Below are positions 33,913-44,697 of a DNA stretch of 44,812 nucleotides, in pieces. Below the pieces are notes generated by a model. The model saw only the letters and a program-made list of their open reading frames with translations. It searched no databases and was not told the origin of the DNA. Positions within the stretch are counted from its first letter, which is position 1. Each line of letters opens with the position of its first letter. The position numbers and the translations under genes are program-made. Origin of the DNA: Parasporobacterium sp. (GTDB lineage: Bacteria; Bacillota; Clostridia; Lachnospirales; Lachnospiraceae); the NCBI GenBank assembly GCA_017510065.1, contig JAFWOB010000074.1, forward strand, positions 1-44,812. The letters are read 5' to 3'.

Positions 33913-33942
33913 AAAAAGGGACTGAACTATACGTTCAGTCCC
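33913..33942 (-). terminator. Rho-independent terminator of the catabolic minus-strand operon
   Basis: Minus-strand hairpin with a 10-base-pair perfect stem (33942-33933 with 33927-33918), a five-base loop and a following TTTTT (33917-33913). It lies 29 bases after the iron-sulfur subunit stop codon and separates the catabolic operon from the lysozyme promoter. Confidence 0.9.
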
Positions 33943-33970: not shown

Positions 33971-34825
33971 TCATGCCTTTTTCAGTACAACCTGACCAAG
34001 ATCTTTCGCCTGATCCAGTACGATCCTGGCTACCTGCGGTTTATATCCTTCATAAGAACAGGTAATCTCGTATTCTGCTCCTTTTGTCAGGAATTTGAAT
34101 TCGAAATCTCCGAAAAAGTCAGTAGCAGTCTCCCTTGTTTCTCCTGTTGCGACATTTTTAATCGCAACCTTTGCTCCTTCGCAGCAGTCATCCTTCTTAT
34201 CTTCAAGAAGAACTTCGCCTGCGACAAATACCTGAGGCAGTTCCTTATAAAGGATCCTCGGTTTTGTACCTTCTTCCGGTCTGTATGGACCAAACTGTTC
34301 CATGCCGCCTCTTTCTTCGATAAACTTAGAGATCGGGCTGTTTGGATCATCCAGATCACCAAAGAAAATTGCCTGGGTCGGACAGCTCTCTACGCAGCGT
34401 GTGGTCTTTTCTCCATTGTCCAGCATATGAGCACACATTGTACATTTTTGCGCAACCTGAGCCTGTTCATTCCAGTAAATAACGCCGTATGGACATTTGT
34501 CGACAAGTTCTTTGCAGCCCTTTGCCTTAACAGGATCAATGATCACAATGCCGTCTTCTCTCTTATATACAGCCCCTTCCGGTGCTCCTTCCGCACATTT
34601 CGGGTTCTCGCAGTGCTGGCACATAACCGGAATGTAATCCATTTTAATTTTCCAGTTTTCACCCTGCTCGATTTCCTTCAGTGTCAGCCAGGTCTGCCCC
34701 ATCATAGGTGTTTGAACAGAGGTCGGAAGATGATCATTCAGACAGTATTCATCTTTACAGGCGATCCAGCAAGAACCGCATCCATCACAGCGGCTGACAT
34801 CAACAGCGATCGAATATCTTGCCAT
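33971..34825 (-). CDS. Iron-sulfur small subunit of a transhydroxylase-type molybdoenzyme
   Basis: A 284-residue electron-transfer subunit. The ferredoxin part has C13/C16/C19/C23, C69/C72/C77, C104/C111, C128/C131 and C144/C148. In four-cluster relatives such as DmsB, cysteines also stand at the equivalents of 81, 101 and 107; here these are Ala81, Ala101 and Leu107, so one [4Fe-4S] cluster is missing. The C-terminal part (about 200-284) looks like a beta-barrel domain (AKVAIKNVATGETRETATD). Three clusters plus such a domain are what I recall of the pyrogallol transhydroxylase small subunit. No Tat signal is present, so it is cytoplasmic. It starts one base after the large subunit stop codon. 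Confidence 0.85.
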   Translation of the reverse strand: MARYSIAVDVSRCDGCGSCWIACKDEYCLNDHLPTSVQTPMMGQTWLTLKEIEQGENWKIKMDYIPVMCQHCENPKCAEGAPEGAVYKREDGIVIIDPVKAKGCKELVDKCPYGVIYWNEQAQVAQKCTMCAHMLDNGEKTTRCVESCPTQAIFFGDLDDPNSPISKFIEERGGMEQFGPYRPEEGTKPRILYKELPQVFVAGEVLLEDKKDDCCEGAKVAIKNVATGETRETATDFFGDFEFKFLTKGAEYEITCSYEGYKPQVARIVLDQAKDLGQVVLKKA

Positions 34826-34826
34826 A

Positions 34827-37352
34827 TTAGCACTCTCCTTCCCATTTCCTGATCTCGATCAGACATGAATTCGGTGTCATACCAGGTGCATTCTTGGACA
34901 GAAGTGTACCTGCGGTCAGTAAATTGACACAACCTCCCCTGTCTACACTGTCTGCTTTTCCTGGCTCCAGCGGATCATACTTTGCGGTACATCCGTAGCT
35001 GTGGATCGTTCCGGCAGGAACTCGGGCGGTTACGCTGACACAGCAGATTACGCGGCCTCTGTCATTGTAAAGTTCTGCAAGGTCGCCGTCTTTCAGTCCT
35101 CTTGCCTTGGCATCTTCTTCGTTGATCCTGACGATCCAGTACGGATAACCATTTTTCATGATTCGGTGCATCGGAATCTCATCCAGCCAGCTCTCATGTT
35201 TGTCATAATGCGTATGGAATGAAAACCTCGGATGCGGAGAAATCATCTGCAGCGGATATTTATACCACATTTCACTCTTATAACCTTCCCATGAGGGGAT
35301 AAAATGAGGTACCGGAGGACGTTCCTTATCATCAGGAAGATTTTCTTTCAGAGACTGTGCTTCAAACTCGATCAGGCCCGTATAAGTACCCAGTTTTTCC
35401 GGATGCCCGTTTTTACGCGGAATGTTGCCCGGATCAGGCGTATCTGCCTCCCGCTCTTCGTAGAACCACCTCATGGACGGCGTGGACTTGCGGTCTTCCG
35501 GACACGGAACAATATAATAACCTTTCCGGTTAAACTCTTCCCAGGTGATATCGCCGTCTTTTGCGATCTCAGAAGATTCAAAGAACAGTCTCGCCCAGTC
35601 GTCTTCTGTGTTGCCTTCCGTAAACTCTTCTTCACGGCCGAGATATGCAGCGATCAGCCGCAGGATCTCATAATCGGATTTGGATTCACCCAGAGGTTCA
35701 ATCGCTTTCTGCTGACGGACGATCACACGCCAGTTATTGCCGATATGCGCCATTGTCGTGTAACCACCGCAGGTTGCCCATTCTCCCAGGTCATTGCGTT
35801 CGAAATTGGTACATGCCGGAAGGATAATGTCTGCCATATTGGTCTCGCTGGAGAACCAGCAGTCCTGGTTTACAACACATTCCAGTTCCGGACTTTGATA
35901 CATTTTAACCCATTTTGAAGTGTCAGACATGGTTCCCATGAAGGATCCGCCATACCGATAGAACATATGGACCTTTGTCTCCATCGGATAATTGTTTTCC
36001 GTGAACTGCTGCTCCAGAGTCGCTCCGCAGAAGCCTTCTCCGCGGAACCAGTCATGCCCTGTTAGGATCGCATCCGGAAGAGTCAGACGGAACAGTCGCT
36101 GCTTCGTTGGATTGGAGAAGCAGATCTTGTTCTTCGCCACGTCGGAGCGTCCCATCTGTCCTGCCGGTTCTGCATATCCCGGGAACCATTTATAGCTGGC
36201 AGGAGCGCCCATCGTTGTACCCCAGATAGATACGCCGGGTTTTCCGTAACCCTGCATTGCCTGCAGAAGGACCATCATTCTCGCCCACTCTGTACCGTAA
36301 GCAGTACGGCAGGCGCTTCCCTGGCCGCCCCTGCACCCGGATGACAGGCAAGTTCTTTTCTTCGCCCATTCGCGGGCAAGTGCACGGATCTTTCTTGCCG
36401 GGATACCGGATTCTTCTTCTGCCCATTCCGGTGTCTTCGGGAAATCTTCATCACCCAGGATATAATCACGGAATTTCTCAAAGCCTACAGTTCTTCTTGC
36501 AATATATTTTTTGTCGTAGGTTTCTTCAGTGATCCAGACGTAAGCAATCGCCATGGCCAGAGCTGTATCAGAACCCGGTCTCGGCGGAAGCCATGTACCG
36601 TCCATAACAGCGTTGGTATAGTTATACAGCGGGTCGATAAAGACACATTTTACGCCTTTTTCCTTCAGCCATACTCTCCAGATGTGGGATTCCTGTCCGG
36701 AATAGGTTCCTCTGGTAGAGTCAGGATCATTCGACCAGAACACGATCATTTCCGTATTCTGCAGAGCATCTTCCAGCAGATCGAACTGCTCCGGCATACC
36801 CAGTCTCCAATGGAATCCGTAAGTATGGGTAGCTCCCCAATGCCAGCCTTCCCAGGAATCCGGATTGTCATAGATCGGCGTATAATGCAGCATGTGCATA
36901 AACCTGTGATAAGGCCCTAATTTATAACCTACAATACCCCAGTTGTGATGTGATGAAGTCATGCCGGTCAGTGCTGCTTCACCATAGGTGTTCTGTACTC
37001 TCTGGATCTCGGATCCGACAAGCTTTACAGCTTCTTCCCAGGATATTCTTTCATATCCTGAAATTCCGCGGTTTTCCGGATGACGATCTCCGTTCGGATC
37101 CCAGTCAACACGTTTCATGGGATACAGGATCCTGTCTTCTGAATAGACTCGGTTTCTCTCTCCGTGAACAGGTGGTGAAAGGCGGAATGCCTTAGGAGGA
37201 GAGTATAATTTTCCATCGCTTCCCTTGATCACCCATGGCTTCGGGAAGTCTTCTTCCGGGACCTGAAGCGGACGCACCCTTGTGATCCTTCCGTCTTCTA
37301 CATAGACAGAAACGGGACCGCCGCCGGTCATATTCGCATATACTTTTTCCAC
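34827..37352 (-). CDS. Molybdopterin large subunit, pyrogallol-phloroglucinol transhydroxylase-like
   Basis: An 841-residue DMSO-reductase-family catalytic subunit. It has no N-terminal [4Fe-4S] cysteine motif and no Tat signal, both as in transhydroxylase. From memory, the Pelobacter enzyme has Mo ligand Ser175 flanked by Asp174 and Trp176, with His144, Tyr152 and Arg153 nearby. Here D165-S166-W167, H135 and Y143 sit at the same offset of nine, while Arg153 is Lys144. The predicted reaction moves a hydroxyl group on a trihydroxybenzene without net redox. The GTG start at 37352 is supported by a GGAG site seven bases upstream. A different aromatic hydroxylase or dehydroxylase substrate remains possible. 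Confidence 0.85.
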   Translation of the reverse strand: MEKVYANMTGGGPVSVYVEDGRITRVRPLQVPEEDFPKPWVIKGSDGKLYSPPKAFRLSPPVHGERNRVYSEDRILYPMKRVDWDPNGDRHPENRGISGYERISWEEAVKLVGSEIQRVQNTYGEAALTGMTSSHHNWGIVGYKLGPYHRFMHMLHYTPIYDNPDSWEGWHWGATHTYGFHWRLGMPEQFDLLEDALQNTEMIVFWSNDPDSTRGTYSGQESHIWRVWLKEKGVKCVFIDPLYNYTNAVMDGTWLPPRPGSDTALAMAIAYVWITEETYDKKYIARRTVGFEKFRDYILGDEDFPKTPEWAEEESGIPARKIRALAREWAKKRTCLSSGCRGGQGSACRTAYGTEWARMMVLLQAMQGYGKPGVSIWGTTMGAPASYKWFPGYAEPAGQMGRSDVAKNKICFSNPTKQRLFRLTLPDAILTGHDWFRGEGFCGATLEQQFTENNYPMETKVHMFYRYGGSFMGTMSDTSKWVKMYQSPELECVVNQDCWFSSETNMADIILPACTNFERNDLGEWATCGGYTTMAHIGNNWRVIVRQQKAIEPLGESKSDYEILRLIAAYLGREEEFTEGNTEDDWARLFFESSEIAKDGDITWEEFNRKGYYIVPCPEDRKSTPSMRWFYEEREADTPDPGNIPRKNGHPEKLGTYTGLIEFEAQSLKENLPDDKERPPVPHFIPSWEGYKSEMWYKYPLQMISPHPRFSFHTHYDKHESWLDEIPMHRIMKNGYPYWIVRINEEDAKARGLKDGDLAELYNDRGRVICCVSVTARVPAGTIHSYGCTAKYDPLEPGKADSVDRGGCVNLLTAGTLLSKNAPGMTPNSCLIEIRKWEGEC

Positions 37353-37403
37353 TTTTCTTCTCCTTTTATATAATGTTTTTATTTACCCCAGATAACAGGC
37401 AGA

Positions 37404-38186
37404 TCAGCCAACGCAGGTAAGTCCTCCGTCCGGATACAGGATATTGCCTGTCATAAAATCAGATGCATGGCTTGCCAGGAAGATCGCAGTTCCGACAACA
37501 TCTTCCGGTGTTGCGTATTTGCGCATAGGAAGAGCTGCAGCGAGAGAATCAAGATATGCCTGTCCGCCACGCTGTTCGATCACAGGTGCCATCATTGGGG
37601 TCATAGTGACTGTCGGGCCAAATGCGTTTACAGTAATGCCGTGCGGTCCGAATTCACTTGCAAACTGTTTGGTCAGCATATCAACAGCGCCCTTTGTGGA
37701 GCAATATCCTACATTACCAGGAGTCTTGGTAGCAATTTTGGATCTGACAGAGGATACATTGACGATCTTGCCATATCCGTTCTTGATCATATACTGTCCG
37801 AAATGCTTACATGCCAGCATCATACCGACGACATTCACATCCAGCATCTGACGGAAAATATCTACCGGGAACTCTTCTGCCGGGAATTTCTTGTTCAGTC
37901 CCTGTGAATTTACAAGGATCTCAACCGTTCCCATTTCTTCATTTGCCTTTTTAGCAAGTTCAGCCATACTCTCTTCGTCAGTTGCATCAACAGTATAATA
38001 CATTACATCCAGACCGGTCTCTTCTTTGATCTGAGCAACTGCTTTCTTTAATGATTCTTCATTTCTGCTGGCGATGGCAACTTTTGCGCCTGCCTGTGCA
38101 AGGCCCTGTGCAACTGCCTGGCCGATTCCGCCGGCACCGCCGATCACTACAGCATTTTTACCTTCCAATGAAAACATATCCAACAT
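37404..38186 (-). CDS. Short-chain dehydrogenase/reductase, candidate phloroglucinol reductase
   Basis: Classical SDR of 260 residues. The cofactor loop GGAGGIG is at 16-22, NSQG at 93-96 replaces NNAG, and the catalytic residues are N117, S145 or S146, Y161 and K165. Arg41 at the end of the second strand (ASRNE) suggests NADPH. Phloroglucinol reductases of anaerobes are NADPH-dependent SDRs, and the molybdoenzyme gene directly downstream would supply phloroglucinol, so I infer that role. SDR substrate specificity cannot be read from motifs. A GGAGG site lies nine bases before the ATG. It is separated from the upstream gene by 228 bases containing two palindromes. Confidence 0.8.
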   Translation of the reverse strand: MLDMFSLEGKNAVVIGGAGGIGQAVAQGLAQAGAKVAIASRNEESLKKAVAQIKEETGLDVMYYTVDATDEESMAELAKKANEEMGTVEILVNSQGLNKKFPAEEFPVDIFRQMLDVNVVGMMLACKHFGQYMIKNGYGKIVNVSSVRSKIATKTPGNVGYCSTKGAVDMLTKQFASEFGPHGITVNAFGPTVTMTPMMAPVIEQRGGQAYLDSLAAALPMRKYATPEDVVGTAIFLASHASDFMTGNILYPDGGLTCVG

Positions 38187-38215
38187 GATTATTTACCTCC
38201 AATATTAACTATACC

Positions 38216-38290
38216 AGGATCTGTGCATAAAGGACTCTCCAAAAGTTCAGATTCTATTCACTTTTGGAGAATCCTTTATGCACAGATCCT
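38216..38290. repeat. Palindrome with variant 13-base loop upstream of the SDR gene
   Basis: Arms 38216-38246 and 38260-38290 pair over 31 bases with one mismatch. Read on the minus strand the loop is GAATAGAATCTGA, matching the GAATTGAAACTGA loop of the other copies at 11 of 13 positions. The arm next to the loop again ends in AAAGT/ACTTT. Its inner end lies 30 bases before the SDR start codon, so in the transcript it would form a large hairpin in the SDR leader. Confidence 0.8.
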
Positions 38291-38306
38291 CCCACACTTT
38301 ATGTTA

Positions 38307-38425
38307 CCGGAAAATAATGATCGGATAGTCTGTTTATATCGGATGTTCTGTCGGAAAGTGAATTGAAACTGAACTTTCCGGCAGGATCATCCGATATAAC
38401 AGACTTTTTGAATATTATTTTCCGG
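38307..38425. repeat. Large imperfect palindrome at the cyclase gene 3' end
   Basis: The core arms around the loop GAATTGAAACTGA (38360-38372) span 38327-38359 and 38373-38405 with a few mismatches. Outer arms 38307-38318 and 38414-38425 pair perfectly over 12 bases. The right outer arm is the last codons and stop of the cyclase gene, and the left arm is an inverted copy of it. The loop and adjoining AAAGT/ACTTT are identical to the copy at 22598-22754. It may terminate or protect the cyclase message. Confidence 0.78.
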
Positions 38426-39215
38426 TTTCGAAACGGAACGACTGGTCCGGATCGGTGATTGCAAGTACCCTTACGCCGGAACCTTCTCCGTTTTTGAATC
38501 TCCACGGGAAGGAAGCAAAGAAGCATCTCTTTCCTGTAATGCGGTCAAGAGGACCTCCCTCTCCTTCGTCATCTCCGATGTTTTCAACGCCCGGGATTCC
38601 TCCTTTTACCATCAGGAATTTATGGGCGGGCTCCCACAGCGGGAAATCCACTTTCGGATCATGTCCGTATTCTTCCGTGTATTCATCGATCAGGTCCGGT
38701 CTGGTGGGTCCTAAACCAAGGTCAACCAGTTTAGTAGCGATCGGATGATCATTGGCCTGGCATCCGTAGCCGACCATCTTTACTTTTTTCTCTACAAACC
38801 AATCTGCTGCTTCTTTGTTGGCACCGCATCCGTAAGCAAAATAATCATCGGAATCACTCCAGATATGATGCTGATGCGTATTAACAATAACGATATCGCC
38901 TTCACGAATCTCCGGCTTTGCATTTTCAAGATCTTCCGGAGTGATCACGCCCCACTTTCCTTTCGGTACATCGATGCAGACGCCTGTACCGAAGAATCTC
39001 CAGAGGGGATACTGTGTAATATCCGGTGTGCATTCTGTAACATGAAGCGGAGCATCCATATGTGTTCCTCTGTGCATGATGCCTTCCCACTGGATATTGT
39101 ACATATTGTCGTTGGCATGGAAACGGATGACTTCCATCTTCAGATTACATCCTGAAGGCCACTGCGGCATAAACGGTTCAAATGTATGTGTGATATCAAA
39201 TATCTGTACTCCCAT
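38415..39215 (-). CDS. Cyclase-family metal-dependent hydrolase, intact site
   Basis: A 266-residue protein of the cyclase/kynurenine formamidase superfamily. The metal signature HxGTHxDxPxH is complete at H48-H58 with D54, and the distal ligands fit H198 and E211 (HKFLMVKGGIPGVENI). Family members hydrolyse C-N, lactone or C-C bonds. In this context the best guess is hydrolytic opening of the dihydrophloroglucinol ring, a cyclic 1,3-diketone, to a hydroxy-oxohexanoate. This is inferred from neighbours. Its start is 24 bases after the paralogue stop codon with an AAGGAGG site. Confidence 0.85.
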   Translation of the reverse strand: MGVQIFDITHTFEPFMPQWPSGCNLKMEVIRFHANDNMYNIQWEGIMHRGTHMDAPLHVTECTPDITQYPLWRFFGTGVCIDVPKGKWGVITPEDLENAKPEIREGDIVIVNTHQHHIWSDSDDYFAYGCGANKEAADWFVEKKVKMVGYGCQANDHPIATKLVDLGLGPTRPDLIDEYTEEYGHDPKVDFPLWEPAHKFLMVKGGIPGVENIGDDEGEGGPLDRITGKRCFFASFPWRFKNGEGSGVRVLAITDPDQSFRFETGK

Positions 39216-39239
39216 TAAGTTTGCCTCCTTTCTGCAATC

Positions 39240-40112
39240 TTAAATGCCTTTATCGATCCTGACTTCGCCGCTCGGATCGAATATCGCTACAAAACGGACC
39301 GGGCATGCGTCTCCGCGATGGATCTTCCATGGAGTCGCAATCATGGTCGCACGTTTACCTGTGATCTCATCCACATCTCCGGACATCTGTGCTACAACAG
39401 GAATGCCTGCTGCTGCAAGCGCCTTTGCAACCGGATAGAATCCAGGATAATCTTCCAGGGCATTGCGGCCTGTCTTTTCCTCATAGATCGGAACGAGTCT
39501 CTTCATGAAGGGGCCCGGCATGCCTTTATGAGGGGTCAGATTGGTTGCGCAGGGGCAATCGATATATGGTGTATCGATCGCAACAAATTTAGGATTCTTT
39601 GAGATCAGATATTCGGCTGCATCCAGGGTCAGTCCCGGAGCTTCTCCGAAGTATTCCATAGAATCAGAATATTTGTGATGCCACCCGGTATTGATCGCGA
39701 CGATATCCCCGTCTTTGATCTCACCGGCTTTTTTCAGATCTTCTGCCGTGATCTTATCCCAGTTGGATTTGTTCCTGAGATCAAGAATGATACCGTTTCC
39801 GAAATAGCGGGCAGGATCCAGGGTTTCCAGATCCTCTGTGCGTGCTTTCATATGGATCGGAGCGATCATATGAGTTCCTGTATGGAAATTGGTACGCACT
39901 TTAAAGGCCTGAACACCGAACTGTGCGTGTTTGACACCATGATCAAAGATCACGTCTGCATCTCCGGGATAGGAAGGTACACCGGTCCCCCACTCGTGAC
40001 TGAGTTCATAGAATACCAGCCCGCTGTAAGGGTCTGTAACAGGACCGACATAAGGATCTTCCAGGGGAGAAGTGTTTTTGAACTGCTCAAGAACGTCAAA
40101 AGGTGATGACAT
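39240..40112 (-). CDS. Cyclase-family protein with degenerate metal site
   Basis: A 290-residue paralogue of the adjacent cyclase protein and first gene of the minus-strand operon. The signature region reads H77-T-G-T-H-M-I-A-P-I-H87: the metal-bridging Asp is Ile83. The distal His and Glu of the family align with Ala229 and Ala241. It keeps H77, H81 and H87, so it may bind one metal, use another mechanism, or act as a structural partner of the intact paralogue. The frame is complete, with an AGGAGG site, so it is not a decaying gene. Its role in the pathway is unknown. Confidence 0.82.
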   Translation of the reverse strand: MSSPFDVLEQFKNTSPLEDPYVGPVTDPYSGLVFYELSHEWGTGVPSYPGDADVIFDHGVKHAQFGVQAFKVRTNFHTGTHMIAPIHMKARTEDLETLDPARYFGNGIILDLRNKSNWDKITAEDLKKAGEIKDGDIVAINTGWHHKYSDSMEYFGEAPGLTLDAAEYLISKNPKFVAIDTPYIDCPCATNLTPHKGMPGPFMKRLVPIYEEKTGRNALEDYPGFYPVAKALAAAGIPVVAQMSGDVDEITGKRATMIATPWKIHRGDACPVRFVAIFDPSGEVRIDKGI

Positions 40113-40236
40113 ATCAGATTCCTCCTCTTACTTTATAAAAAACAAAATGTTAACAGTTTCATACCGTGTATATATTTTACCATTTTCTTCCCCTTTTTCT
40201 CTTCGGATTATTTATACAATATTAAAAAAACTCTTT

Positions 40237-40244
40237 GTGCATTT
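40237..40244 (+). promoter_or_regulatory. TTGTRCAW motif copy in the divergent control region
   Basis: TTGTGCAT, one of seven occurrences of TTGTRCAW in the short intergenic regions of the catabolic locus. The 224-base divergent region (40113-40336) also holds A/T-rich -10-like sequences for the cyclase operon, but I could not assign a convincing -35/-10 pair on the minus strand. Confidence 0.35.
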
Positions 40245-40291
40245 CTTCTTAATATTTTTTAAAAATTGAGAAGATAATTCAAAAAACCTGT

Positions 40292-40302
40292 TATAATATA
40301 AT
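40292..40302 (+). promoter_or_regulatory. -10 region of the PucR-type regulator gene
   Basis: Two overlapping perfect TATAAT hexamers (40292-40297 and 40297-40302) lie 35-45 bases before the regulator start codon. The nearest -35-like hexamer, TTGAGA at 40266-40271, is 20 or 25 bases away, which is long, so activation by a regulator is plausible. A TTGTACAA motif overlaps the second hexamer by one base. Confidence 0.5.
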
Positions 40303-40309
40303 TGTACAA
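40302..40309 (+). promoter_or_regulatory. Candidate operator TTGTACAA at the regulator gene promoter
   Basis: A perfect 8-base palindrome directly downstream of the -10 hexamers, a position suited to autoregulation. The same palindrome recurs in front of the CoA-transferase gene and the permease gene. Confidence 0.45.
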
Positions 40310-40336
40310 AAATTACGAATAAGGACTGATTTTAAT

Positions 40337-41563
40337 ATGGATATCAGATCGGACAGATTAAAAACCTTTCAAAACCGGCTTCTAGCCTGCATGTCATCCA
40401 ACGGGTCCATACAGGATCTTCTGGATATTGCCCACGAAGTGTTTCTCAGACCTATGTTTATCAAGGGAGACGGCAATATGATCTATGCCATAACCCGTTC
40501 TTACAGCAATGATGTACATCCTTCCTGGTCTTCTTTTATCAGGAATGTGGATACCAAGGCAGTAGAGTTTGAATCCGTCCGTACTGTCAGCGAAGATCCG
40601 GAATTTGTCCAGGCTTTTTCCCAGAAGGAATGCACAGTCCTTCGGTCTCCATTCTACGGCGGAATGGTACTCCATGCCAATGTCTGGCTGGAAGAAAAAA
40701 GAGTCTGTGAAGTTGTTGTACTGGAAAACGGTTCCCCTTTCTCAGAGGAAGAAAAAGAACTGATGGATATGTTTTCCGGATTTCTAGGGCTTCATGTTTC
40801 TATAAACAAGGAACGTTATCTGGCCGGATCAGATCCCATCACCACTTTTACATCTCTTTTGGATCACCGTCCCATAGCTCCGCTGGAATTGATCAGTATC
40901 AACAATCAGACCGGCTGGAACGCAGATGATGAATTTGCCGTGGTGACAGCAGATACGCCGGCCAAAAACGATACGCCGCTGCTTGCAGTCTTTCGGGATA
41001 AAATAAAAGCCGCCATTCCCATGAGCGTAACTTTTATTTATAAGAATAAAGTTGTTTCGATCGTTAATCTGTCCCGCTCCGGTGGTTACCAGGCGGTCAG
41101 CAGGACCATCAGCAAACAGATTTCCTCAGAATCACTTTGCTGCGGGATCAGTTTTGAATTCACCGGTATAGAAAAAACGCCGGAGTACTATAATCTTGCT
41201 CTTCTGGCTTGCTCCATTGCTGACAGACTGGATAAAAAATTCCTGGATATGTATAGTGCTGCGCATATACGTATTTCAGAAAGGATCCATTCCATAAACG
41301 ATCTGCAGGATTTGATTCATCCGGACCTTATCAGGCTGGATCATCTGGACCCGCAAAGAACATCCCATTACCTGAAAACACTTTATGCCTATCTTCTGTG
41401 CGGTGGGAATTATACTGATACAGCCAATTATCTCGGCCTGCACCGGAACAGCCTGATCTACAGGATGAACCGTATTCAGGGGATTATCAAAACCGACCTG
41501 AATGATGTCCATAATCGACATTTCCTGCTAATCTCCTACCTTCTGATGGGAATCAGTTTCTGA
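40337..41563 (+). CDS. PucR/CdaR-type transcriptional regulator
   Basis: A 408-residue regulator. The C-terminal 60 residues form the PucR-type helix-turn-helix (GGNYTDTANYLGLHRNSLIYRMNRIQ). The N-terminal two thirds carry a probable GAF or PAS-like sensor (about 25-160) and a GGDEF-like middle region typical of this family. It is divergent from the cyclase operon and precedes the CoA-transferase gene, so it is the obvious candidate to sense the aromatic substrate or an intermediate. PucR-type proteins are usually activators. Confidence 0.87.
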   Translation: MDIRSDRLKTFQNRLLACMSSNGSIQDLLDIAHEVFLRPMFIKGDGNMIYAITRSYSNDVHPSWSSFIRNVDTKAVEFESVRTVSEDPEFVQAFSQKECTVLRSPFYGGMVLHANVWLEEKRVCEVVVLENGSPFSEEEKELMDMFSGFLGLHVSINKERYLAGSDPITTFTSLLDHRPIAPLELISINNQTGWNADDEFAVVTADTPAKNDTPLLAVFRDKIKAAIPMSVTFIYKNKVVSIVNLSRSGGYQAVSRTISKQISSESLCCGISFEFTGIEKTPEYYNLALLACSIADRLDKKFLDMYSAAHIRISERIHSINDLQDLIHPDLIRLDHLDPQRTSHYLKTLYAYLLCGGNYTDTANYLGLHRNSLIYRMNRIQGIIKTDLNDVHNRHFLLISYLLMGISF

Positions 41564-41582
41564 TCAGGCAAATTCGTCAGTT

Positions 41583-41592
41583 TTTGTACAAA
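41583..41592 (+). promoter_or_regulatory. Candidate operator upstream of the CoA-transferase gene
   Basis: TTTGTACAAA, a perfect 10-base palindrome, lies 20 bases after the regulator stop codon and 99 bases before the CoA-transferase start codon. It contains the TTGTACAA core seen in the regulator and permease control regions. Confidence 0.45.
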
Positions 41593-41691
41593 GATCATAT
41601 CCGCTTTTCAGTAGATTCCAACGAAGTGGGATTTACCACGTGACAATCACAGGGAGATACGTTACAGTAGCAATACAGGAGGTATAAAACC

Positions 41692-43173
41692 ATGTTTGAA
41701 AACAGGATCGGTATAGAAGAACTTAACAGCAAGGTTATGAGTGCGCAGGCAGCAGCTGAAATGATACTGCCGGGCATGACAGTAGGATGTTCCGGATTTA
41801 CAACAGCCGGATTCCCCAAGGAAGTCCCTATGGCGATCGCGCAGCTTAGAAAAGCAAATAACCTGACCTTGATCACTCCCGCTTCCACCGGTGTGGAACT
41901 GGATGGCGCTCTGGCAAAAGCCGGTCTTATCGCCAGAAGGTATTCTTTCCAATCTAATGCGGATATGCGAAAATCGATCAACAAAGGAGAAATCGCTTTT
42001 TCAGATCTGCACTTGAGCCAGGTTCCCAAATACATTGATTCCGGTTTTTTGGGAACTATGGATTTTGCCATCGTAGAATGCTGTGCGATTACGAAAGACT
42101 GCGGAATTGTACCGATGGCTTCTCTCGGTGCGTCCAACAGCCTGATCAGGTGTGCCAGGAAGGTAATCCTGGAGATCAACACAACCTGCCCGGAGTCAAT
42201 CCTCGGAATGCATGATGTATATGATGCTCCTTACGGAAGCACTATCCCGATCAATCATCCGGGTGACAGGATCGGAACTCCGGTGATCCCATGTACACCT
42301 GATAAGATTGCAGCCATCGTATTTACCGACAAGATCGGCAGTACACCGTCCTTTAAGGCACCGGATGCTGTATCTTCTGCGATTGCTCAGAATATTATCA
42401 AGATCTTCAAGCAGGAAGTCCAGGAGGGACGTCTTCCAGAAAACCTGGCTCCTCTTCAGTCCGGTGTCGGAGCTGTTGGCAATGCAGTATTTGCAGGATT
42501 GAAAGATGCGGGATTCCGTCATCTTACCATGTATACGGAAGTTGTGCAGGATTCTTCTCTGCAGCTGGTGAAGGATGGAATCCTTGACATGTGTTCTACT
42601 ACTTCTCTTTCTTTGTCCGAAAACGGACTCCAGGAGCTGTATGGCAATATGGATTTCTATAAAGAACATGTAGTGATACGTCCGCAGGACGTCAGCAATC
42701 ATCCGGAGCCCATTAAAAGACTGGGTGTGATCGCTATCAACACTGCTGCAGAGATCGATATTTACGGAAATGTCAATTCCACCCATGCAACCGGTTCGAG
42801 CATTATCAACGGCATCGGAGGAAGCGGTGATTTTTCCAGAAATTCCAGGCTGTCCATTTTTATGACGCCATCCACCGGAAAAGGCGGCAATCTTTCACGG
42901 ATCGTGCCAATGGTCACTCATGTGGATAACTGCGAGCATGATGTCAATATCGTTGTCACTGAATACGGTATCGCTGACCTGAGAGGCACTTCCCCGAAAG
43001 AACGTGTCGAAAAGATCATCGAAAACTGTGCTCATCCGGATTACAGGCCAATGCTCCGGGCATATTATGAGCGCGCTCTTAAAAATGCTTCTGGTATGCA
43101 CACCCCGCATGATCTGGAAACCTGTTTTGAAATGCATACAAGATTTTTGAAGACAGGATCCATGAAACCCTGA
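41692..43173 (+). CDS. Acetyl-CoA hydrolase/CoA-transferase family protein (Cat1/AarC type)
   Basis: A 493-residue CoA-transferase related to succinyl-CoA:acetate and 4-hydroxybutyrate CoA-transferases. The family's glycine-rich segment GVGAVGNAVFAGL precedes the catalytic Glu283 in YTEVVQDSS, which forms the glutamyl-CoA thioester. The C-terminal GSGDFSRNSRLSIF and EYGIADLRG segments are also typical. In the proposed pathway it could move CoA onto acetoacetate, acetate or butyrate; the actual pair is not determinable. An AGGAGG site is nine bases before the ATG. Confidence 0.88.
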   Translation: MFENRIGIEELNSKVMSAQAAAEMILPGMTVGCSGFTTAGFPKEVPMAIAQLRKANNLTLITPASTGVELDGALAKAGLIARRYSFQSNADMRKSINKGEIAFSDLHLSQVPKYIDSGFLGTMDFAIVECCAITKDCGIVPMASLGASNSLIRCARKVILEINTTCPESILGMHDVYDAPYGSTIPINHPGDRIGTPVIPCTPDKIAAIVFTDKIGSTPSFKAPDAVSSAIAQNIIKIFKQEVQEGRLPENLAPLQSGVGAVGNAVFAGLKDAGFRHLTMYTEVVQDSSLQLVKDGILDMCSTTSLSLSENGLQELYGNMDFYKEHVVIRPQDVSNHPEPIKRLGVIAINTAAEIDIYGNVNSTHATGSSIINGIGGSGDFSRNSRLSIFMTPSTGKGGNLSRIVPMVTHVDNCEHDVNIVVTEYGIADLRGTSPKERVEKIIENCAHPDYRPMLRAYYERALKNASGMHTPHDLETCFEMHTRFLKTGSMKP

Positions 43174-43208
43174 AAATTATTGTGCAACATTTATAAAAAA
43201 TGTTGATC

Positions 43209-43222
43209 CTAAAACGTTTTCA
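43209..43222 (+). promoter_or_regulatory. Candidate catabolite-repression (cre) site
   Basis: CTAAAACGTTTTCA matches the CcpA cre consensus TGWAANCGNTNWCA at 12 of 14 positions, with both mismatches at the left end, and contains a perfect AAAACGTTTT palindrome. It lies about 100 bases before the permease start codon. Carbon-source control of an aromatic catabolic locus would be expected. Confidence 0.4.
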
Positions 43223-43224
43223 TA

Positions 43225-43251
43225 TTGTGCATTGTACATAATTTTGTACAA
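43225..43251 (+). promoter_or_regulatory. Cluster of TTGTRCAW motifs upstream of the permease gene
   Basis: Three copies are packed together: TTGTGCAT (43225-43232), TTGTACAT (43232-43239) and TTGTACAA (43244-43251). A further copy, TTGTGCAA, lies at 43180-43187 just after the CoA-transferase stop codon. Tandem spacing of about 7 and 12 bases suggests cooperative binding of one protein. Confidence 0.45.
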
Positions 43252-43258
43252 CATATTT

Positions 43259-43310
43259 CCTCCCGTTGCGGTAAAATAAAGCCGAGTAAAATATTTTACT
43301 AAACGGGAGG
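43259..43310 (+). promoter_or_regulatory. Leader hairpin burying the permease ribosome binding site
   Basis: CCTCCCGTT (43259-43267) is perfectly complementary to AACGGGAGG (43302-43310), which contains the Shine-Dalgarno of the permease gene. One G-U and one further A-U pair can extend the stem. Inside the loop, 43285-43300 is a perfect 16-base palindrome (AGTAAAATATTTTACT). The structure would block ribosome access unless opened, so translational control is plausible. Confidence 0.5.
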
Positions 43311-43317
43311 GATTATT

Positions 43318-44697
43318 ATGTTTAAGAAAATTACCAACGGCTGCGTGCGGGTAATAAACAGATGGCTTCCGGATCCGTTCCTTTTCGCGGTTATCCTGAG
43401 TATCATCGTTTATATCTTCGCAATGATAGCCACAGGAATGGGTCCTTTGAAGATCCTGAACGCCTGGGGCGGCGGCGGCGGATTCTGGAATCTGTTGGCA
43501 TTCTCCATGCAGATGGCCTGCGTTCTGGTATTCGGTTCTGCTATGGCTTCTTCAAAACCCATCAAGAGCCTGCTTCGTAAGATTGCCGGACTCGCGCACA
43601 ATAACTTCCAGGCTATCTTCGTCACGGCGTTTATCTCCACGATCTGCTGCTGGCTTAACTGGGGCTTTGGTCTGATCGTCGGTGCCCTTCTTGCAAAAGA
43701 AGTCGTAAGAAGAGTTCCTTCTGTTGACTATCCTCTGCTGATCGCATCCGCTTATTCCGGATTCGTGATCTGGCATGCCGGTCTTTCCGGATCGATCCCG
43801 CTGGCTCTGAACTCCGGTTATACGATTTTTGCCGGGACAGAACGGGAAATGACATTCAATGCTTCCACCAATCTTACGATCTTCCATCCGATGAACCTGA
43901 TCATGTGCGGTTTCATCCTGATCGTAATGCCCTTTGTACTCTATGCTATGCATCCGCATAAAGACAAAGTCATCACCGTGGATCCCGCTATTCTTCAGGA
44001 CGAAGCTGAAAGAGTTCATCCGAAGGCTACTCCGGCAGACAAGATGGAACAGTCCCGTATTCTCTGGATCATCCTGGTTGTCGGCGGATTCCTTTTCATC
44101 ATTTTCAACTTCATCTGGAAAGGGCAGGAAGGCAAGAGTGTTGCGGCTTCCCTCGACCTGAACACAGTTAACTTCATCTTCCTGTTCCTTGGTATCTTGT
44201 TCCACGGCAGCTTGAGAAGTTACATTGATGCGATCGAAGAAGCAGTCAAAGGTGCCGGCGGTATTATCCTGCAGTTCCCATTCTATGCAGGTATCATGGG
44301 TATGATGACCGTTGCCAATGCAGAAGGTGTTTCTCTGGCAAGCGTCATCTCCAATTTCTTTGTCAGCATTTCCACCCCGGTTACATTCCCGCTTCTCACA
44401 TTCCTGAGCGCAGGTATCGTAAACTTCTTCGTACCTTCAGGCGGTGGACAGTGGGCTGTTCAGGGACCGATCGTTATGCCGGCTGCAGCTACCATGGGTA
44501 TCGACCCCGGCCGTGCTGCTATGGCTATTGCATGGGGCGATCAGTGGACCAACATGATCCAGCCGTTCTGGGCTCTGCCCGCACTTGGTGTTGCCAAATT
44601 ATCAGCCCGTGATATCATGGGATATCTCGTGATCATTCTGGTATTCACCGGACTTGTTGCATGCCTTGGCTTCCTGGCCTGGGCCGCATTCTTCTAA
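43318..44697 (+). CDS. AtoE-type short-chain fatty acid permease
   Basis: A 459-residue polytopic membrane protein with about eleven hydrophobic segments, matching the AtoE short-chain fatty acid transporter family (start KITNGCVRVINRWLPDPFLFAV; core GLSGSIPLALNS; C-terminal FFVPSGGGQWAVQGP). It probably exchanges or exports acetate, butyrate or acetoacetate made by the pathway, or imports an acid substrate. It follows the CoA-transferase gene by 144 bases with its own control signals. A strong GGGAGG site lies close to the ATG, inside the leader hairpin. Confidence 0.9.
   Translation: MFKKITNGCVRVINRWLPDPFLFAVILSIIVYIFAMIATGMGPLKILNAWGGGGGFWNLLAFSMQMACVLVFGSAMASSKPIKSLLRKIAGLAHNNFQAIFVTAFISTICCWLNWGFGLIVGALLAKEVVRRVPSVDYPLLIASAYSGFVIWHAGLSGSIPLALNSGYTIFAGTEREMTFNASTNLTIFHPMNLIMCGFILIVMPFVLYAMHPHKDKVITVDPAILQDEAERVHPKATPADKMEQSRILWIILVVGGFLFIIFNFIWKGQEGKSVAASLDLNTVNFIFLFLGILFHGSLRSYIDAIEEAVKGAGGIILQFPFYAGIMGMMTVANAEGVSLASVISNFFVSISTPVTFPLLTFLSAGIVNFFVPSGGGQWAVQGPIVMPAAATMGIDPGRAAMAIAWGDQWTNMIQPFWALPALGVAKLSARDIMGYLVIILVFTGLVACLGFLAWAAFF

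Follow-up and report, generated by a model that had tools for sequence, protein, structure and literature searches.

A conserved tandem of cyclase-family hydrolases in a candidate anaerobic trihydroxybenzene degradation locus of Parasporobacterium

Eight genes in a draft genome of Parasporobacterium sp. raise the question of whether they encode anaerobic degradation of trihydroxybenzenes and, if so, which compound would enter the pathway and how its ring would be opened. Ring opening of trihydroxybenzenes without O2 is the committed step through which tannin and flavonoid carbon reaches short-chain acids in the rumen, the gut and waterlogged soil. The window, meaning the whole stretch of DNA analyzed here, is the entire contig C23 (44,812 bases) of this genome, which spans 3.47 Mb in 242 contigs and is estimated to be 90.2% complete and 2.6% contaminated. 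The original prediction had proposed a pathway leading from a molybdenum (Mo) enzyme through an SDR-family reductase and a cyclase to coenzyme A (CoA) activation. All eight reading frames are open and intact where that prediction placed them, and their family identities hold by domain models, with the CoA-transferase scoring above the TIGR03458 cut-off and the Mo and Fe-S subunits finding their best structure matches in chains A and B of PDB 4v4c. The pathway itself is partly supported and right in outline: the locus probably encodes the first half of a pathway that ferments trihydroxybenzenes anaerobically to acetyl-CoA, for which pyrogallol would be the most likely substrate. The most novel step of this pathway is ring opening, for which the locus carries a tandem pair of hydrolases with one degenerate member.

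On the minus strand, the genes run CYCB (39240..40112), CYCA (38415..39215), a 228-base gap, the SDR (37404..38186) and the two subunits of a transhydroxylase (TH), THa (34827..37352) and THb (33971..34825). The two cyclase-family hydrolases recognized originally, CYCA and CYCB, both match PF04199 and both group with dihydrophloroglucinol cyclohydrolases (DPGC), but they are not interchangeable, as they form one conserved tandem in which CYCB has lost putative metal ligands. In a tree of 73 of 155 cyclase sequences (rows at least 85% alike removed), a 42-row clade (support 99/91) holds 9 rows of CYCA, 15 of CYCB, 8 of W20/Y22-type DPGC with one relative, 8 of C49-type DPGC and 2 cyclases from Mycobacterium/Novosphingobium clusters. 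CYCA and CYCB each form a 100/100 clade of their own. The remaining 31 rows fall apart from the DPGC clade. Several long branches occur outside that clade, and the bootstrap of the tree is not fully settled. The W20/Y22-type label denotes a cyclase with both CsDPGC residues named in the available part of PMC10470551, and is assigned from these residues rather than from direct comparison with the CsPGR or CsDPGC sequences. The C49-type takes its name from contig C49 (L014) of the same assembly, which carries a complete TH-thiolase-SDR-DPGC-TfD-TAL-CtfAB-symporter locus whose cyclase reads W-P-F. We rejected C49 as the genome's own pathway, given its GC content of 55.3% and a tetranucleotide correlation with the window of 0.51 versus 0.93-0.97 for contigs C102, C22 and C69. 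It is probably a binning contaminant, with horizontal transfer as the alternative, and its sequences were kept as alignment and tree rows and as BLAST seeds.

The two members of the tandem differ sharply at the putative metal site, whose positions are assigned from the family motif. At positions 48, 52, 54, 58, 156, 157, 195 and 198, all 16 distinct CYCA sequences of at least 240 amino acids (aa) carry H H D H D H E H, as do all 14 W20/Y22-type DPGCs, while C49-type DPGCs have Ser or Ala at position 157 (15/15). The equivalent of D54 is missing from every one of 17 distinct CYCB sequences (N in 15, I in 1, C in 1), and so is that of E195 (N in 13, Y in 4). The window CYCB additionally has Cys in place of H157 and Ala in place of H198 (CYCA numbering). 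A looser motif count gives the same division, with the Asp absent from 18/18 CYCB and kept in 16/16 CYCA and 29/29 DPGC-type sequences. Despite these losses, CYCB is not visibly decaying, since its orthologues remain 50-68% identical to that of the window. We read the pair as a two-component cyclohydrolase in which CYCA would probably be the catalytic subunit and CYCB its metal-site-degenerate partner.

The tandem arrangement is conserved well beyond the window. For related loci, named genomes were scanned with the aligned Mo subunits of C49 and the window, and the best 80 of 374 relatives were taken (L054-L133). Wherever the contig extends far enough, CYCB adjoins CYCA; this holds at 15 of 15 sites, namely the window, eight of these 80 loci, L164-L168 and L189. 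Three more CYCB genes are cut by contig ends (L098, L101, L150). The pair is present in Bacillota, Desulfobacterota and Pseudomonadota. CYCB occurs in ten of the 80 loci and a DPGC-type gene in 12, with no overlap between the two groups. A missing neighbor is often uninformative in this set because only 26 of the 80 stretches reach 22.4 kb; 34 show none of the scored features, and 27 of those 34 are shorter than 15 kb. As a background, CYCB was matched at 1e-40 in 1 of 391 Clostridia genomes, namely the window's own. We also searched 17 genomes for all PF04199 proteins, ten of them picked because CYCB had already been seen there. Among the other seven, the pair lies elsewhere in five (genomes of L059, L061, L075, L085 and L099), the L067 genome has CYCB at a contig end, and the L087 genome has none among the loci fetched, with a DPGC-like gene beside its TH. 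In the L059 genome, which also has CYCB-CYCA, a C49-type DPGC (53%) lies between a TH small-subunit homologue and a thiolase (L141).

The gene neighborhoods of the pair in other genomes resemble a ring-cleavage pathway. Propionivibrio dicarboxylicus DSM 5885 encodes on one contig a TRAP transporter, THa-THb and the run TfD-SDR-thiolase-CYCB-CYCA-TAL, and CYCB and CYCA are the only two PF04199 matches of its genome. L062 and L063 combine TfD, SDR, TH, thiolase, CtfAB, TAL, CYCB and CYCA. A Lachnospiraceae metagenome-assembled genome (MAG; L055, extended as L239) has a divergent PucR gene, CYCB, CYCA, SDR, TAL, TfD, thiolase and CoA-transferase, plus a TH. We tentatively propose, with somewhat less than even confidence, that CYCB-CYCA is a ring-opening hydrolase of a previously unrecognized two-component kind, whose obligate second component would be a paralogue that no longer has its metal site. 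The pair would replace the single DPGC in TH-linked polyphenol loci of the three phyla and may serve a trihydroxybenzene other than pyrogallol. Replacement is meant here as a claim on loci and not on genomes, because some genomes hold both in separate loci. A literature search by title or abstract opening, which left subscription journals mostly outside its coverage, found no description of a two-gene cyclohydrolase.

What would enter the pathway depends on the transhydroxylase. The Mo subunit THa contains PF21423 (AhtL-like_1st, named for pyrogallol hydroxytransferase), Molybdopterin and Molydop_binding domains, and matches 4v4c chain A, the Pelobacter acidigallici enzyme, nearly end to end (847 bits, residues 6-840), the next structure being DMSO reductase at 245 bits. 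THb combines Fer4_11 with a C-terminal carboxypeptidase-regulatory-like domain (CarboxypepD_reg) and matches chain B over residues 1-279 with 204 bits, the next structure reaching 141 bits. THa keeps the residues aligned with 4v4c H144, D174, S175, Y404 and Y560, and we take His144, Asp174, Tyr404 and Tyr560 to have catalytic roles. The two-subunit plan of pyrogallol-phloroglucinol transhydroxylase is thus present, with a Ser-type Mo subunit and an Fe-S subunit bearing an extra C-terminal domain. A Ser ligand of the transhydroxylase Mo is stated in the accessible portion of PMC10100899. Small-subunit homologues of at least 40% identity accompany 76 of the 80 related stretches, and a 4v4c search matched 12 of 395 genomes at 1e-150 or better (best 65% identity), the Pelobacter acidigallici genome not being among those matched. 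A grouping of the Mo subunit with another subfamily had been named beforehand as evidence that would count against the pathway, and here the outcome is divided: THa is a clear relative of that enzyme, but belongs to a sister clade. Of 124 sequences, 50 entered the tree after removal of short ones and of those at least 80% alike. In it, clade I comprises 12 rows including the Pelobacter enzyme (100/100), and clade II comprises 30 rows including THa (100/98) from Bacillota, Propionivibrio, Desulfobacterota, Actinomycetota and others.

Since THa belongs to this sister clade, sequence does not establish pyrogallol as its substrate, and the first step is the one most in doubt in the pathway. Clade II enzymes could instead take another hydroxybenzene, such as hydroxyhydroquinone or a tetrahydroxybenzene, and supply phloroglucinol to the SDR and ring opener of the window, leaving pyrogallol to the TH on contig C22. 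In a study of Pelobacter massiliensis, hydroxyhydroquinone was reportedly converted to phloroglucinol by sequential transhydroxylation. The clean separation of the two clades fits such a division of labor, as do their differences at positions 153, 171 and 354, the presence of one TH of each clade in the window genome, and a Pelobacter-clade TH beside a W20/Y22-type DPGC locus in L183. However, both clades keep the catalytic residues, and the active-site place of position 354 is only putative. We regard a different substrate as unlikely. The TH on C22 (L015 9947-13156) is a clade I relative with an N-terminal extension in a 1069 aa frame, and its neighbors resemble, judged from their translations, Hdr-type and sulfite-reductase-type electron transfer proteins. 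Further Mo enzymes accompany related TH genes, and curated models gave none of these neighbors a name above cut-off. One of them, a Mo/W enzyme (about 749 aa), is conserved upstream of clade II TH in L062 (7356-9605), L058, L059, L061, L063, L073 and L099; its closest solved relative is acetylene hydratase (327 bits). Upstream of C49-type TH in L074, L077, L078, L083 and L125 lies another Ser-type Mo enzyme of about 915 aa, which is 33-35% identical to THa and without the Tyr404 equivalent. Eight TH relatives are plasmid-borne; the three inspected lie near FAH and VOC genes, and the annotation there shows no cyclase-family gene.

With pyrogallol still the most likely substrate, THa-THb would transfer a hydroxyl to yield phloroglucinol, which the SDR would reduce to dihydrophloroglucinol. 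The SDR (PF13561, adh_short_C2) keeps YxxxK and groups as originally expected with reductases of phloroglucinol-type loci, just as both cyclases group with DPGC. In a tree of 36 of 63 sequences (rows at least 80% alike removed), it falls in a 27-row clade (97/94) drawn from loci with transhydroxylase, cyclase, TfD or TAL, including neighbors of W20/Y22-type DPGC; four other SDRs of the same genome and five from related loci fall outside. This clade denotes kinship and not exclusivity, because its rows were mostly picked from ring-cleavage loci. SDRs of cyclase-pair loci and of C49-type DPGC loci are intermixed in the tree, which suggests that the pair and the C49-type DPGC may receive the same dihydro compound. 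CYCA would then open the ring hydrolytically to 3-hydroxy-5-oxohexanoate, while its partner CYCB would have a non-catalytic role or be required structurally.

The steps that would follow are encoded elsewhere in the genome. Contig C69 carries MFS-TAL-TfD-thiolase, its TAL, TfD and thiolase being 69, 78 and 69% identical to their L239 counterparts, and its composition matches that of the window (r 0.969). TfD is predicted to oxidize 3-hydroxy-5-oxohexanoate to triacetate, and TAL to cleave triacetate with acetyl-CoA to acetoacetate and acetoacetyl-CoA, whereupon the CoA-transferase at 41692 would activate acetoacetate and thiolase would yield acetyl-CoA. The order of steps first proposed, from Mo enzyme through SDR and cyclase to CoA, thus gains support from homology and from neighborhoods in other phyla, but the locus is incomplete by itself: the published-type co-location of PGR, DPGC, TfD and TAL is not found in the window, with TfD and TAL on C69. 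Contig C102 (composition r 0.934 to the window) carries a cyclase with both Trp20 and Tyr22, an SDR, a TfD-like gene, thiolase and CtfAB, with no TAL in the stretch read. Its class-level relatives (L182-L188) have the full set of SDR, W20/Y22-type DPGC, TfD, TAL, thiolase and CtfAB in five of seven cases; in L187 the TfD of the set is a 31% match, and L188 ends at a contig edge beside its DPGC. We rejected the window as a plain published phloroglucinol locus, as the C102 locus fits that description better.

The downstream genes also bear on whether CYCA and CYCB act together. They could be two independent hydrolases that act in succession, one opening the ring and the other, for instance, hydrolytically cleaving a diketo acid, with an altered metal site in CYCB. 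Each has its own fully supported clade, CYCB is well conserved, neither TfD nor TAL is part of the window operon, and three genomes with the pair lack a TAL match, all of which would suit two successive activities. Set against this, CYCB has uniformly lost both acidic ligands and in the window two His equivalents besides, and TAL homologues (1e-40) occur in five of eight pair genomes examined, adjoining the pair or on its contig, as does TfD (near the pair in L239, L062, L063 and L166; same contig in L240). We therefore consider two separate hydrolases rather doubtful, more so than a different TH substrate. It is very improbable that the locus serves an unrelated substrate, with an S- or N-oxide reductase relative and a sugar-acid dehydrogenase, since the matches pointing that way (gluconate 5-dehydrogenases as best curated matches of the SDR, bisC and dmsA families for the Mo subunit) are below cut-off, whereas THa is far closer to 4v4c than to DMSO reductase and the genes are linked to cyclase, TfD and TAL across several phyla.

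Several observations weigh against a two-component hydrolase within a pyrogallol pathway. THa lies outside the clade of the characterized Pelobacter enzyme, and Gln occupies the position of 4v4c Trp354. The SDR has SRN in its cofactor loop instead of TR(S/N), the cofactor motif of phloroglucinol reductase according to the accessible part of PMC10470551, although SDRs beside W20/Y22-type DPGC also deviate (TGR, SGR or TAR). At the Trp20/Tyr22 feature of CsDPGC, which the C102 cyclase has in full, CYCA has Trp and, in all 16 sequences, Ser, while CYCB has Tyr or Met and Gly. The same genome already holds a DPGC-type locus (C102) and a Pelobacter-clade TH (C22), and the proposed pathway gives no reason for a second set. 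In no fewer than four of the 17 genomes (G295, G309, G310 and G311, those of L055, L059, L061 and L067), a C49-type DPGC occurs in a different locus from the pair or CYCB. TfD and TAL are not near the pair in L165, L167 and L168, and in L164 the sole candidate is a TfD-like gene (29%) about 7 kb away. The pair on a Rhizobium plasmid (L189) has TfD and no TAL in its stretch, and three Desulfobacterota of the eight pair genomes have no TAL match at 1e-40. Those three loci instead encode a thiolase, an OB-fold protein, an ADP-forming acyl-CoA synthetase and a member of the enoyl-CoA hydratase family, so the product of ring opening may differ among genomes. As the pair also occurs without TAL nearby, more than one downstream route may exist. 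Likewise, the window locus is not the only route of its genome, because the C102 locus has a published-type DPGC cyclase. The plasmid of Rhizobium sp. ACO-34A (L189 9977-14656) carries CYCB-CYCA-SDR-TfD followed by an annotated fumarylacetoacetase, with no TH in the stretch, and may represent a version of the pathway using another C-C hydrolase.

The remaining three genes lie on the strand opposite to the cyclase-SDR-TH operon, and two of them recur in one relative. The PucR-type regulator (40337..41563, plus strand; HTH_30) is divergent from the operon and probably controls it; a 34% homologue is divergent at the same place in L239, and L055 alone among the 80 related stretches has one. The acetyl/succinyl-CoA:acid CoA-transferase (41692..43173, plus; AcetylCoA_hydro, TIGR03458 and NF053853 above cut-off), which may activate acetoacetate, has a 48% homologue at the end of the CYCB-CYCA-SDR-TAL-TfD-thiolase run in L239. 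Otherwise, its matches in the 80 stretches reach only 25-26% (L100 and L104). The permease (43318..44697, plus; SCFA_trans PF02667, 519 bits) does not recur, with no homologue in the 80 stretches at E 1e-10, and L026 carries a 30% homologue next to a DPGC gene; its membership in the pathway is weakly supported. The gap between CYCA and the SDR (38187..38414, unstranded) contains two long near-perfect palindromes (-100.4 kcal/mol, z -12.6). A short core of them is matched on nine further contigs of this genome, and L054, a related contig, breaks off close to the gap edge, so the gap looks like a dispersed palindromic repeat, which could attenuate the operon. L054 comes from a goat jejunum MAG of Parasporobacterium, the nearest named relative found, and its 89.4% DNA identity over 7.9 kb indicates that it is probably a congener. 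A terminator-like hairpin (33918..33942, minus; a 10-pair stem followed by TTTTT) just 3′ of the Fe-S subunit gene may end the operon, though terminator-like sites across the whole region are at chance level (9 found versus 8.3 expected). Promoter scans were likewise at chance level, and an Rfam search gave no match.

If CYCB-CYCA indeed represents an additional type of ring opener, surveys of genomes for DPGC only would overlook degraders, sulfate reducers among them. In anoxic soil fed with condensed tannin, the Sporomusales MAGs CTSoil_80-82 and a Holophaga MAG dominated late metaproteomes, as described in the available part of PMC8084988. By MAG name, CTSoil_80, 81 and 82 correspond to L061, L059 and L060, and all three carry a clade II transhydroxylase; CTSoil_80 and CTSoil_81, the two examined for it, also have the CYCB-CYCA pair.

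Compared with known systems, the locus combines familiar components in a different arrangement. The Pelobacter acidigallici transhydroxylase (PDB 4v4c, 4v4d, 4v4e) resembles THa-THb nearly end to end in both subunits, in the small-subunit C-terminal domain and in the catalytic residues. In contrast, THa is about 50% identical to it over aligned columns within the sister clade, and has K153, D171 and Q354 where the Pelobacter enzyme has R, H and W. The resorcinol hydroxylase RhL of Azoarcus, a cytoplasmic enzyme of the Ser-ligated MopB group that acts on phenols, shares that Ser-ligand group with THa, a likeness drawn from its description in the accessible portion of PMC10100899. Isatin hydrolase and kynurenine formamidase, the PF04199 structures, share the fold family and the HxxTHxD motif of CYCA, but score at most 37 bits, and the formamidase-like cyclases of sampled genomes fall outside the DPGC clade. 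The closest parallel for the pathway is the phloroglucinol degradation of Clostridium scatologenes by CsPGR, CsDPGC, CsTfD and CsTAL, as far as the available part of PMC10470551 describes it. Homologues of its SDR, cyclase-family hydrolase, TfD, TAL, thiolase, CoA-transferase and transporter are spread over the window and C69, whereas the window differs in having CYCB-CYCA in place of one DPGC, an SDR about 31% identical to the one next to the W20/Y22-type DPGC on C102 and, in addition, a transhydroxylase.

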